Assembly: GCA_903825285.1 (NCBI GenBank)
Contig: CAIJZY010000010.1
Span: 62,001-126,000, forward strand
Direction: 5' to 3'
Length of the DNA stretch: 64,000 nt
Origin: an uncultured Opitutia bacterium
GTDB lineage: Bacteria > Verrucomicrobiota > Verrucomicrobiia > Opitutales > Opitutaceae
Positions 22,166 to 35,178 of this stretch are shown here, piece after piece (the stretch's first letter is position 1; every line of letters starts with the position of its first letter). The translations under genes were made by a program, and so were the position numbers. Below the pieces are notes generated by a model, which saw nothing but the letters and a program-made list of their open reading frames with translations, did no database searches and was not told the origin of the DNA.

Positions 22166-22310
22166 GGAGGCTCAAGTGGCAAGTAGCAAGTGACAGGTAC
22201 CATTTACCAAGTACCAAGTGCCAAGTAACAAGTAACAAGGAACAAGCGCCCAGTGAGCTGCATGAGTCCACTTGGCACTTGTCACCTGTCACCTGCTACT
22301 TCCTCACCCC
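22166..22310. repeat. AAGTNNC tandem heptamers with inverted counterpart
   Basis: The sequence contains repeated 7-nt units of the type CAAGTAC, CAAGTGC and CAAGTAA (22168-22245; for example TTACCAAGTACCAAGTGCCA). After a short spacer comes the reverse-complement series (22268-22303; CACTTGGCACTTGTCACCTG and onward). It lies between the upstream end of psd and the stop of clpB. The unit structure is unlike the CRISPR repeat-spacer pattern, and the family may expand by slippage. Confidence 0.75.
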
Positions 22311-29287: not shown

Positions 29288-32287
29288 CTATTTCGCGGCG
29301 GCGGGCGGATGCAGCATGGCCTGCACGAGCTGGTCGTGCCACGCGGTCCCGTCCACCTGCCGCAGGCTGCCGCCAAAATGGATCGGCTGGCTGAACTCCG
29401 TGTAGCCGAGCGCATCCTTGCGCGGGGACAGCAGGCCGGTGGGCTTCAGCTGCTCGACGAGCTTGCCGCGCACGGCGAGCTTGAGCTCGAGCTGCAGCGG
29501 CTGCGCGCTGAGGGCCACACCGGGCTTGGCCGCGATCAAGCCGGTGCCGGTGATCCGCTCGTCCGGCGCGGTCAGCGCGATGTCGGCGAGGCGGATGCGG
29601 CCGTCGCCTTCGCGGACGGCGGTGATCGTCAGCTGGTCGTAGCCAATCTCGCCGATCACGCTCGTGAAATTCAGGACCGCGTCCACGCCCTTGCCGAGAT
29701 GCTTCTCGGCGCCGATCGGGCCCTTGACGCCGAACAGATGGCCCACGGCGGAGCCGACGGTGCCGAGGGAATCCTTCATCGCCGAGGGCTTCTCCTCCGG
29801 GATCGCATCCGCCACCTCGGTGCGCAGCAGGCGAAGGATGCCCGTGGTGCTGGTGAGCTGGACCGACACGCGGGCGCGCGCCACGAGGTCCGTCAGCGTG
29901 AGGCCTTCGCCCGTGAACGTGCCGGTCGCGGTCCCCTTGCCCTCCAGCGTCGCCTCCGCGCCGGCCTCGGCCGACGGCAGCAGCGGCGCCAGGTCGATGT
30001 CGTCGTACGAGGCTTTCGCCTCGAGGTGATACGGCACCTTGGCTGCCGCATCGAAGGTGACCTGCCCCTCCGCCTGCAGGGGATGATGACGCGGCAGTCC
30101 GCCGCGACCGTGCGCGAGGTGGAGCGAGCCGTGGTCGAACTCCAGCGTGCCGCCCACGTCGTTATATATCTTGTCGCCCACCTTCACCTGGTCGAACGCC
30201 ACCATCAGGGCGCCAACGGCGTGGCCCCAGAACGGCAGGCGATCCGCGGTGGGCCGGGCCGTTCCATCGGACACCGCGCCGGCCTGCAGCAGGCTGGAAA
30301 GTCCCATCGCCGCCGCGCCCGGGGCCGCGAGCTGGCGCAGGTGGTCCAGCGTGATCGTCTCGCCTGTCACCCGGACATTGATCCGGTTATCCACCGGGTC
30401 CTCGACCCAGGTGCCCTCGATCGTCAGCTCGGACGTCTCCTTGCCGGTGGCCAGTTTCACGGGCGCCGCAAAATTCATCATCCCGCCGGCGTCGATGTCA
30501 CCATGCACGCTGGCCGTGCAGGTGTGCAGCGGATCGTGCCCGGCCAGCGCCAGCTTCAGCTCGAACTGCGTCGGTGACCCCACGCTCGCGGTGATTTCAC
30601 CCTTGGCCGAGCGCGCGGTGAAACCGGCGAGGGCCGGCAGCGCCGCGCGGGTCGCCAGGGCATCCACGTCGCACGCCCACTGCGCGGAGATCGCGACCGG
30701 CTGGTCGGACCCGGCGTGACGCGTCAATTTTCCATCCACGGACGCAAGCCGACGTCCGCCGGCGGTGATCAGCAGCGGGTGCATCTGCACCTGCCAGCCG
30801 TCCGGACCGTAGCCGGCGAGGCCCGTGAAGGTCAGGTCGAGATTCTGCACCCAGGTCCGGCCCGCGCGCTGCACGGCCACGCCAGTCGCGGTGAAGGGCG
30901 CCTTGGGCCGCACCTCATAGGCGCCGTTCGCGAGGCGGATCGTGAAATCGCCCCCACCCTCGCCGCCCGACAGTGCGAGCGACGTGTTCGGGAGCCGGAG
31001 CCACGCCATCGGAAATCCGCGGATCGAGCCATCAAGCCAGTCCTTGCCCGGATCGGCCGGCTTTAGTTCACCTGTCGGACCGTCGTACGTGAAGCGCTGC
31101 AGCGCATGGGCCGCGGCGGAGATCCGGCCGGACGCCAAGGTAAAATCCAGCGTGTCGACCTGCAGGGATTGGCCGCTGTGCACCCCGTCGAAGCGCGTGA
31201 CAAAGGTGACCGCTCCCAATTGGGCGAGCGAGGGATCGATGGTGCCAAGCTGGTCAACCGACCCCTCGAGCCGTCCGGTGGCATGCGTGCGATTGAAGGC
31301 CGGGTCGGCCTCGAAGCTGCCCGCGCCGGCGGCGACGACGGCGGGCAGCTCGTGGTCCGGCTGCAGCAGCGCGAGGTCGGCGGAACGCAGGTCGAGCTTC
31401 CAGTCGCCGGCCAGCGTTGCCGCCGCGGCGGCGTGGCGCGCGTGCACGCTCAGGACGTGCCGGCCGGTCCGGTCCACCTCAAGGGCGTAAGTCTCGCCCT
31501 CCGCCTCGCGCGCGGCGGCGAGGCTCACCGTCATGACCAGGCCCACCGGCAGCGTCCCGCCCAGGCCGCTCAGGTCCGCGACCAGCGAAAGGTGATCGAG
31601 CGCGCGCGGCGAGGCGGCGCCGGCGACCAATCGGCCATGGGCGGCGACCGTGTTGGCGGGAAACCACGGGTCCACGACGACCGCGTCGCAGGTGAAATTG
31701 CCCTCGTGCCCCGCGGCCAGGCCGCCGCCCTTGAGCGTGACATGAATCCGGGTCGGCGCCTTGTCGGCCGCGGCGACCAGGATGTCGCCCTCGAGGTCCA
31801 CGTTATCCAGCGTGACGTCGCCCGGCAGCTCGGGACCGCGCACGAGCCCGTGCAGGAGCCGGGCGGCCTGGGCGGCGACCTGCACCCAGGCGGCCGGCGT
31901 GGCGCCGGACGCGTGCGGGGTTTCCACGACCACCTTGGCGCCGGCGGTGGGTTCCCACGGATGGCTCAGGTCGAGGGTCCAGCCCTTCGCCACGAGGCTC
32001 CGCACCTGGAATTTGTGATCCCGCCAGGCGACCGGGACCGGCAGGCCGGCCTTCAGGGTCGGCAACGTGAGGATGGCACCGCCGGATTCACCGCGGAGAT
32101 CCTCAAGTTCGACCGAGTCGAGTCCCGCGGACAGCGACCCCACGGTGCCGTGGAAGCCCGGGATGCGGTCCAGCAATGACTGGGCGTACCAGGTCTGCAC
32201 GGCCGGCGTGTAGGCCAGGGACAGGAGCAGGAGGAGGAGCGCGGCGAACGCGCCGAGGCATTTCAGGAGGGTTCGGAGGAATCTCAC
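29288..32287 (-). CDS. Large AsmA/YdbH-like envelope protein
   Basis: The product has 999 residues. A single N-terminal anchor (about 7-27, LLKCLGAFAALLLLLLSLAY) is followed by a very long, beta-rich periplasmic region with repeated short strands such as GSLSAGLDSVELEDLRGES and VKVGDKIYNDVGGTLEFDHG. The C-terminal third (TGTFTGEGLTLTDLVARARV; TAPDERITGTGLIAAKPGV) resembles the AsmA-like repeats of bridge-type lipid-transport proteins (AsmA, TamB, YdbH, DUF748). I infer a role in lipid or outer-membrane protein traffic between membranes. The next gene on the same strand starts 57 nt after its stop. Confidence 0.75.
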   Translation of the reverse strand: MRFLRTLLKCLGAFAALLLLLLSLAYTPAVQTWYAQSLLDRIPGFHGTVGSLSAGLDSVELEDLRGESGGAILTLPTLKAGLPVPVAWRDHKFQVRSLVAKGWTLDLSHPWEPTAGAKVVVETPHASGATPAAWVQVAAQAARLLHGLVRGPELPGDVTLDNVDLEGDILVAAADKAPTRIHVTLKGGGLAAGHEGNFTCDAVVVDPWFPANTVAAHGRLVAGAASPRALDHLSLVADLSGLGGTLPVGLVMTVSLAAAREAEGETYALEVDRTGRHVLSVHARHAAAAATLAGDWKLDLRSADLALLQPDHELPAVVAAGAGSFEADPAFNRTHATGRLEGSVDQLGTIDPSLAQLGAVTFVTRFDGVHSGQSLQVDTLDFTLASGRISAAAHALQRFTYDGPTGELKPADPGKDWLDGSIRGFPMAWLRLPNTSLALSGGEGGGDFTIRLANGAYEVRPKAPFTATGVAVQRAGRTWVQNLDLTFTGLAGYGPDGWQVQMHPLLITAGGRRLASVDGKLTRHAGSDQPVAISAQWACDVDALATRAALPALAGFTARSAKGEITASVGSPTQFELKLALAGHDPLHTCTASVHGDIDAGGMMNFAAPVKLATGKETSELTIEGTWVEDPVDNRINVRVTGETITLDHLRQLAAPGAAAMGLSSLLQAGAVSDGTARPTADRLPFWGHAVGALMVAFDQVKVGDKIYNDVGGTLEFDHGSLHLAHGRGGLPRHHPLQAEGQVTFDAAAKVPYHLEAKASYDDIDLAPLLPSAEAGAEATLEGKGTATGTFTGEGLTLTDLVARARVSVQLTSTTGILRLLRTEVADAIPEEKPSAMKDSLGTVGSAVGHLFGVKGPIGAEKHLGKGVDAVLNFTSVIGEIGYDQLTITAVREGDGRIRLADIALTAPDERITGTGLIAAKPGVALSAQPLQLELKLAVRGKLVEQLKPTGLLSPRKDALGYTEFSQPIHFGGSLRQVDGTAWHDQLVQAMLHPPAAAK

Positions 32288-32592
32288 TGGAGGGAGCGAG
32301 GATCAGACCGCAAGTCGGCTGCGGAGTGTCATCGAATTGAAAGGGACCGGGGGTGTCAGCCTCCAAACCATCGCTTGCGCCCGGTCGTTGGAAAATGGAG
32401 CCGCGGCGCCCTCGCCGCGCCCGGCCATCATTTCACCGCAAAGGCCGCGAAGAGCGCGAAGGGGCTGGCTGTTTTTACCACGAAGGGCACGAAGCACGCG
32501 AAGAGGAGGCGGGCTGACGCGGTTTTAATCGCTGGATTCAGTCCAAGCCCGCGAGGCCTTCGTGCGCTTCGTGTTCTTCGTGGTGAAACGGA
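32288..32592. repeat. CACGAA-family repeat, copy G, with GC-rich arm
   Basis: A single arm of the GGAGCCGCGGCGCCCTCGCC element sits at 32396-32421. After it, TTCACCGCAAAGGCCGCGAA (32432) and TTACCACGAAGGGCACGAAG (about 32476) form left arms, and CTTCGTGCGCTTCGTGTTCT with the adjacent TCGTGGTGAAA (to 32587) the right arm. The rest of the gap, from 32288, should hold the promoter of the AsmA-like gene. No gene is visible. Confidence 0.75.
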
Positions 32593-33805
32593 CTAAGTTG
32601 CTCGCGCGCGAATCCGGTTGAAGAGCCGACGCAGCGCCATCGCGTACCCGGTGTAAACGAGCAGGCACCCACCCAAACTGGCGAAGCCGGCGATGATCTG
32701 TCCGGCCAGGCCAAAGGCATCCCCACTGTGCGACAGGCGCACCCACCGCCGAGTCCGCCATCCGGGACCCAGGTCGGCATAGGAGTCCTTCGCCCGAAGC
32801 TCACCGGTCGCATGATCCCGGGTCACGTTCGTGACGGCAAAGACCGGCCAGGGATGAGGCATGGCCACGGCCGCGTAGAGTGCCTGCGGATTCAGCAGGC
32901 CCCGCTCGCCGGATTTCGCGGGGGCAATCGCGGGTTGGAAGGAAAAGGACATCTGCCTCCAATCCTGGTAATTCTTCTCCACCTGCGCCATGAAATCCTC
33001 CAGCGACGGAGCGTCGGCGGGAGGTGCGACCGGTTTTGGCGCAGGCCTGGCCGCCTGGTTGGCCGCCGGCGGGTTCGGGAGCGGCTCCCCCGCCAAGCGG
33101 AACATCAGGCGATTAACCGGTCCGGAGGAAAGGACCACGCCGGTGGCCGTCAAAACGAACAGGATGGGCAGCAGCCAGATCGCGACCACGTTGTGCCAGT
33201 TCCAATCCCGGGCGCGTCCTCGCGCGCCTGAGACAAACCAGATCGTCGGCCGCACCGCGCTCCAACTCCACGTCCGCGGCCACCAGAGATAGAGGCCGCT
33301 TAGGGTGAGGAACAGAAAGACCACATTCGCCGATGCCGAGAAGCCCTCGCCGAGCGGGGGCTTGGCATGGAGTCGGCGGATCGCCAAATAGAATGCGTCC
33401 AGCCGGGGCGCCGTATCCTGGCGCATCTCACCGGTGTACGGGTTCACGCACCAGTTCTTGCGATCCGCGGTGGTCAGGGTGATCGCGTCGCCGGGATCCT
33501 TTGAGACGGTGAGGCCGGTGATGGCGACCGCCGGCTGGCTCCGGGAGGCCGTCGCCAAGGCCTCGTGAAAGGTGAGCCGCGCGGGCCGGCTGGCTCCGGG
33601 AGGCCGTCGCCAAGGCCTCGTGAAAGGTGAGCCGCGCGGTCGAGGCTGCGGGCGCGCCCGGGCGACGGACGTCCCGTTCCGCCCAATCCAACACCTGATC
33701 GTGAGAGGCCAGTACGGCGCCGCTGAAGCAGAAGATCAGGATGGGCACGCCAGCCAGCACTGCGGCGGACAGATGGAACCAGAAGATCACACTGCGGAAC
33801 CGCAT
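32593..33805 (-). pseudogene. PepSY-associated membrane protein, frameshifted by a 55-bp tandem duplication
   Basis: The 5' frame (from ATG 33805) encodes MRFRSVIFWFHLSAAVLAGV, a typical PepSY_TM start (iron-uptake-associated reductase-like family). It runs through LTFHEALATASRSQPA and then loses the frame. The 3' frame (to 32593) continues with ATASRSQPAVAITGLTVSKD, three more membrane segments (FLFLTLSGLYLWWPRTWSW and others) and LVYTGYAMALRRL. Removing one copy of the 55-bp repeat at 33530-33639 restores one continuous frame of about 385 residues. As it stands the product is split. The duplication is exact, so reversion by slippage or recombination is possible. Confidence 0.85.
33530..33639. 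repeat. Exact 55-bp tandem duplication
   Basis: Two adjacent copies (33530-33584 and 33585-33639) read GCCGGCTGGCTCCGGGAGGC and onward through GTGAGCCGCGCGG, with no internal mismatch. The length is 3n+1, so the copy shifts the reading frame of the PepSY gene. This has the look of a recent event. Confidence 0.92.
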
Positions 33806-34140: not shown

Positions 34141-34953
34141 ATGAAAAAGCCCACGTTCACCCTTCTCAAATTCCTCTCTGTTACTTTCCGTGCCACCGCG
34201 TTCCTTGTTGGGATCGGCATCATTGGCACTTTGGTCATGTTCCCATATGCGACGCGCATGGTCGAACATCGCGCGGTAAACCTTGGGCTATTTGTTGTCG
34301 ATGGAGCGCCCGCCTTCAGCTTCACGCATGGTTCGTCAGGATTCTCGTGGAGCACGATGGATCATCAAGGTCCTGCCCTGCAACCTGGCCTTAGGTACCC
34401 CGCCGAGCTCCTCTCCGGTTCGCCGCTGGGTAGAATCACCTTTGGGCGATTCAGCCTCCGGAACAACGACGGCGCCCGGCAGATTGAGATGGCAAAAAAA
34501 GATGGATCCGTCGCCGTGATGGACGCCCTCGAAGGGTCGTTCACATTCGCCGGCACGACAAACGCATCCGAGATCCTCGCCCCTGTGAAGTGGCCTTTCA
34601 TTGTCAGCATCCTCTGCACCGGTGTGTTCACCATCGCCGTCTTGGAGCTCCTTAGCCGCATGTTCGACCGAGTTCAGTCGGGTGAAGTCTTCACCCAGAC
34701 AACCGTTCGGTATGCACAGGTCATCGGCATCCTGTTCATCGCCTCGAGTCTGCTCAAGGGCTTCACGGCGGCCTGGCTAAAACATGCGATGGCCGTCGTC
34801 GTGATGCAGCAAGTGGCCCCAGGAGCCCTCTATCTCGATTCGTCCGCCAGAGGAGACTCATCGGGCCTGGTGACCGGCCTGGTGATTCTGGCGCTGGCCG
34901 AGGTATTCCGGCACGGCCTCAAGCTGAAGGAGGAGAACGCACTCACCATTTAA
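34141..34953 (+). CDS. DUF2975-family membrane protein
   Basis: The product has 270 residues from the ATG at 34141; the in-frame TTG at 34117 lies in the operator arm and is rejected. Four membrane segments are visible: FRATAFLVGIGIIGTLVMFP near the start, WPFIVSILCTGVFTIAVLEL, YAQVIGILFIASSLLKGFTA and GLVTGLVILALAEVFRHGL. The last segments with FDRVQSGEVFT before them are the DUF2975 signature (RxxxGEPF in many members). The gene is followed 15 nt later by a small Cro-like HTH gene. This two-gene cassette is widespread. Its function is unknown, but it looks like a membrane-coupled regulator. Confidence 0.85.
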   Translation: MKKPTFTLLKFLSVTFRATAFLVGIGIIGTLVMFPYATRMVEHRAVNLGLFVVDGAPAFSFTHGSSGFSWSTMDHQGPALQPGLRYPAELLSGSPLGRITFGRFSLRNNDGARQIEMAKKDGSVAVMDALEGSFTFAGTTNASEILAPVKWPFIVSILCTGVFTIAVLELLSRMFDRVQSGEVFTQTTVRYAQVIGILFIASSLLKGFTAAWLKHAMAVVVMQQVAPGALYLDSSARGDSSGLVTGLVILALAEVFRHGLKLKEENALTI

Positions 34954-34968
34954 CGGGAGAACCATTCC

Positions 34969-35178
34969 ATGCCGATCCAAGTAAATCTCGACCGCCAAAT
35001 GTTCGAAAAGAAGGTGAGCCTGACCGAACTTGCGGGTCGGGTCGACCTCACCCTCGCCAATCTCTCGATTCTGAAAACCAACAAGGCCCGCGCGATTCGC
35101 TTCAGCACGCTAGAGGCACTATGCCGGGAGTTGAAATGCCAGCCCGGCGACCTGCTGGAATACGTCGATTCTCCTTAG
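34969..35178 (+). CDS. Small Cro/XRE-type HTH regulator (YozG-like)
   Basis: The product has 69 residues, one helix-turn-helix domain. SLTELAGRVDLTLANLSILK is the HTH and the C-terminal FSTLEALCRELKCQPGDLLE is the standard ending of this family. It follows the DUF2975 gene by 15 nt and is probably co-transcribed. It likely binds the palindrome at 34068-34130 and controls its own operon, perhaps in response to the membrane partner. Confidence 0.9.
   Translation: MPIQVNLDRQMFEKKVSLTELAGRVDLTLANLSILKTNKARAIRFSTLEALCRELKCQPGDLLEYVDSP

Follow-up and report, generated by a model that had tools for sequence, protein, structure and literature searches.

Tandem duplications of 26–116 bp account for three of 25 lrp mutations described in Xenorhabdus, and the revertants examined there never restored the gene itself: genetic reversion was not observed (PMC6786866). 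Other tandem repeats have been caught changing. Promoter repeats of Mycobacterium tuberculosis, one of them 57 bp long, change in clonal populations at rates of 1e-2 to 1e-3 per chromosome (PMC12817950); repeats in Escherichia coli tolA contract at 6.9e-5, mostly in RecA-dependent fashion (PMC3477136); and duplications in cap3A give rise, as the work is cited, to high-frequency phase variation in pneumococcus (Waite et al. 2001, cited in PMC2995930).

The repeat described here occurs in a 64,000-nucleotide stretch of DNA from an uncultured Opitutia bacterium, the whole of which we call the window. It sits within a minus-strand gene of the PepSY_TM family (PF03929), and the parts of that gene and of the repeat are these:

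33530..33584, minus strand: copy A of the 55-bp repeat, whose translation joins the gene's downstream part without a change of frame
33585..33639, minus strand: copy B of the 55-bp repeat, translated in the correct frame from the gene start
33428..33805, minus strand: upstream frame, with an ATG start, matching positions 1-76 of the PF03929 profile (E=1e-7, 32.5 bits)
32593..33558, minus strand: downstream frame, 321 aa and stop-free, matching positions 71-295 of the profile (E=2e-40, 139.9 bits)

Tandem Repeats Finder, run on the window, reports 33530-33639 as 2.0 copies of period 55 with a 100% match and zero indels. A separate exact-match scan lands on that interval too, its run of matches being exactly 55 long, and comparison letter by letter finds copies A and B identical. 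The scan covered 2,106,704 bases of the organism's own genome, about 56% of it, sampled as stretches with the window included. Nothing else in those bases is exactly duplicated in tandem at a period greater than 21 bp, and as the only one of its kind there the 55-bp repeat is not a product of chance. When the letters flanking both copies are compared, there is zero microhomology at the junction: the letter just ahead of the first copy is not the one with which the unit ends, nor is the letter just after the second copy the one with which the unit begins. The unit can fold upon itself end to end, with energies in the 8th (plus strand) and 32nd (minus strand) percentiles among 55-mers of the window and a shuffle z-score of -1.2; as none of these values is notable, a special hairpin was rejected as the cause. 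The window also contains, at 22173-22246, a degenerate tandem array of about 9.6 copies of a 7-bp unit (CAAGTAA/CAAGTGC), detected by Tandem Repeats Finder.

Proteins of the PepSY_TM family are inner-membrane proteins of the PiuB/FoxB-like, iron-uptake type. The two halves of the gene both exceed the curated cut-off for PF03929 (28.8 bits), and jointly they span the entire profile. Both are also coding-type in composition, with G+C of about 0.80 at the third codon position (0.63/0.55/0.80 over the three positions in the downstream half). Because 55 does not divide evenly by three (55 = 3×18+1, leaving a remainder of 1), the reading frame is lost at the repeat. The upstream frame encodes the first 75 or so PepSY_TM residues, among them the first transmembrane segment, and then an out-of-frame tail that ends at a stop at 33428; past the repeat its GC peak falls at the wrong codon position, as expected of a shifted frame. 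The downstream frame begins at an in-frame TTG at 33558, inside copy A, and has no credible start of its own. No second PepSY_TM gene that might compensate is present in the genome, and no solved structure of a relative was found by sequence search.

One might suppose that both frames are used nonetheless, and that a second start or a programmed frameshift yields a functional protein, in two pieces or fused. The downstream frame is, after all, open for 321 aa and does have its TTG, but this TTG falls inside the repeat, the piece that it would begin has no first membrane segment, homologues of the gene are single-frame, and the upstream tail has the codon-position signature of a frame that has slipped. 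We regard this arrangement as barely credible. The gene is very probably inactive.

Homologues reveal what the gene is likely to have been. All 13 that were aligned are uninterrupted at the site: the residues encoded by the repeat occur in them once, in a single frame, and none of the 13 has a tandem repeat at the corresponding position. Nor does the 84 kb of sequence that makes up the homologue loci contain any exact tandem repeats. Given this, the ancestral gene very probably had one copy of the 55-bp unit. The duplication looks recent, since no further decay is visible: the profile is fully covered, and the codon-position GC is retained. These comparisons are made at some distance, the nearest homologues being about 35–40% identical as proteins and about 70% as DNA over short pieces, among comparison genomes that number one per species. 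None of these is a close relative of the genome itself; a search of genome contigs gave two distant relatives, and matches to plasmid or viral contigs were not found.

The original prediction, that an exact 55-bp tandem duplication at this place throws a PepSY membrane gene out of frame, and that removal of one copy would restore it, thus agrees with what we find: coordinates and copies are exact, the halves are joined at the repeat in different frames, and the one-copy, uninterrupted form is that of the homologues (n=13). Its further statement, that the gene is switched off, stands as regards the frame, which is broken in the sequence, while the loss of function is deduced from that frame.

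We consider it probable that one local event of recent date duplicated 55 bp in tandem, that the PepSY_TM gene was very probably inactivated by it, and that this amounts to the ordinary loss of a dispensable gene. The course of events would be simple. One local duplication would have arisen inside the gene; translation beginning at 33805 would then shift frame after the first copy had been read, and run to the stop at 33428; and the product would be a fragment of 125 residues with the first membrane segment only. Contraction by slippage or recombination could, mechanically, undo the change. Exact head-to-tail copies within a coding sequence, a length not divisible by three and uninterrupted homologues are the marks of loss of function by tandem duplication, and all three are found here. 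The lrp null mutations of Xenorhabdus (PMC6786866) are alike in that a tandem duplication of tens of base pairs within one coding sequence accompanies loss of function, here a probable one; they differ in that those mutants were obtained as isolates, with phenotyping and reversion tests, whereas the present case is known from its sequence alone. The 55-bp duplication is probably a member of an ordinary and already known class of null mutations.

Duplications of this length invite suspicion, for the SPAdes assembler stops by default at k=55. If the repeat were an overlap artefact of k=55, contig ends in the same assembly might be expected to share 55 bp. None do: the overlap is exactly 141 bp in each of 22 pairs of contig ends, and an overlap artefact of this kind was rejected. 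The length of the overlaps points to an assembly made with MEGAHIT at k=141, the genome being probably a metagenome bin, and a relative's record bears a MEGAHIT-type name, k141. The check on contig-end overlaps is reusable wherever such duplications have to be separated from the k-mer artefacts of assemblers.

An error of a more local kind is harder to dismiss. The genome might have only one copy, the second having come from MEGAHIT's local assembly or from a read, chimeric or produced by PCR, that found its way into the contig. A junction without any microhomology is less typical of duplications born of slippage; it counts against a real duplication and is compatible with a chimera, as are copies that number exactly 2.0. 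The genome is a draft in 62 contigs whose ends resemble those of a short-read assembly, the G+C content of the window is about 68%, and contigs built at smaller k can persist into a final assembly. Against this, the route by way of k-mer overlap fails on the 141-bp evidence; the 110-bp array fits within one 141-mer and, being shorter, could be resolved by the assembler from single reads; and the fault would not be systematic, since 2.1 Mb hold no other such duplication. We judge a local chimera unlikely. The possibility of an assembly artefact, which the original prediction had allowed for, is thus set aside in its contig-overlap form, k being 141 and not 55, and persists in its local form at the low likelihood just given.

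Could the duplication, if real, be a switch? Copy number would then toggle at high frequency between one (on) and two (off), the two states being maintained by selection on iron uptake. Tandem repeats in bacteria do expand and contract, as those in M. tuberculosis promoters, tolA and cap3A attest, but reversibility by itself is not evidence of a switch, because any mutation by tandem duplication is reversible in principle. The duplication is a single, isolated event, and whereas a phase-variable repeat would be expected to be kept in relatives, the homologues have no repeat at the site. No microhomology is present at the junction to seed duplication again and again, the hairpin of the unit is ordinary, and the family that the switch would govern is absent or truncated in congeners. 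The 57-bp dop repeat of M. tuberculosis (PMC12817950) is nearly equal in length and also belongs to a GC-rich genome, but it is situated in a promoter and varies both across strains and within clonal populations, whereas the repeat in the window is in a coding sequence and has been seen once. Similarly, high-frequency phase variation was observed in pneumococcal cap3A, as that work is cited (Waite et al. 2001, cited in PMC2995930), whereas here one state is seen. We find a toggle kept up by selection very doubtful, and it is highly unlikely that the population sampled mixes one-copy and two-copy cells, the duplication being a reversible switch caught in one of its states. Were the two states to share a population, this would be a simple, natural instance of phase variation by tandem duplication outside the well-studied pathogens.

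Of the outcomes that had been proposed for this repeat, expansion and contraction by recombination or slippage are mechanically possible, to judge from the published repeats, with no sign that they are put to use as a switch; a reversible on/off device goes unsupported, the event being isolated, the homologues free of repeats and the junction without microhomology; and a neutral loss of recent date has the most in its favor, as the halves are otherwise intact and the family has been lost or truncated in congeners. There is no sign, in short, of a switch maintained at the 55-bp repeat. We infer that the cells do carry the duplication, that the protein does not work, and that a dispensable gene was lost in the ordinary way. 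A single broken gene is of minor importance; it records the past or ongoing loss of one dispensable membrane gene.

Loss of PepSY_TM appears to be common in the genus, on two counts. PF03929 is absent from four of 11 congeners, though these are draft genomes and an absence may be an assembly gap; and in another congener, G009, the gene is truncated at its 5' end, matching the homologues from residue 144 onward only. In place of the first 143 or so residues this copy has an upstream, TPR-like frame (L015, G009:C61:31851-35168, 1102-2187), which resembles the TPR-like gene—the TPR likeness being assigned by eye—that precedes an intact PepSY_TM gene in G007. The truncation looks like an independent deletion that joined two genes. 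Recurrent absence and truncation of the family fit ordinary gene loss.

The neighborhoods of these genes also vary. In several relatives the PepSY_TM gene lies near a xylose-isomerase-like gene; in others it sits next to a gene for a PKHD-type hydroxylase or next to a TonB-receptor-like frame (the receptor was assigned by eye), a setting typical of iron uptake. The window's gene is like the rest of the family in that its two halves cover the entire PF03929 profile, but it differs in being frame-broken and without neighbors of the iron-uptake type. It stands alone, between a large ORF and a DUF2975/HTH pair. The ORF, downstream on the same strand (29288-32287, minus), is 999 aa long and has no match in Pfam or NCBIfam at E 0.001. 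The pair, at 34144-35178 on the plus strand, is compact and divergent from the broken gene, and comprises a DUF2975 membrane protein and, directly after it, a small HTH_26 regulator of the Cro/C1 type.

Just downstream of the broken gene are two members of a dispersed short repeat, TTTMACCACGAAGGGCACGAAGCRCACGAAG, in opposite orientations. The window has ten matches to this repeat at ≤3 mismatches, against an expectation of 0:

32472-32494 (plus strand) and 32567-32589 (minus strand): the pair downstream of the broken gene
2212, 2300, 13172, 13388, 13431, 14915, 17364 and 17577: positions of the others in the window

The core pattern of the repeat has 0 matches in 400 kb of the family relative G014 and 78 in 2.1 Mb of the organism's own genome, and it has the look of a family of extragenic repeats belonging to this lineage.
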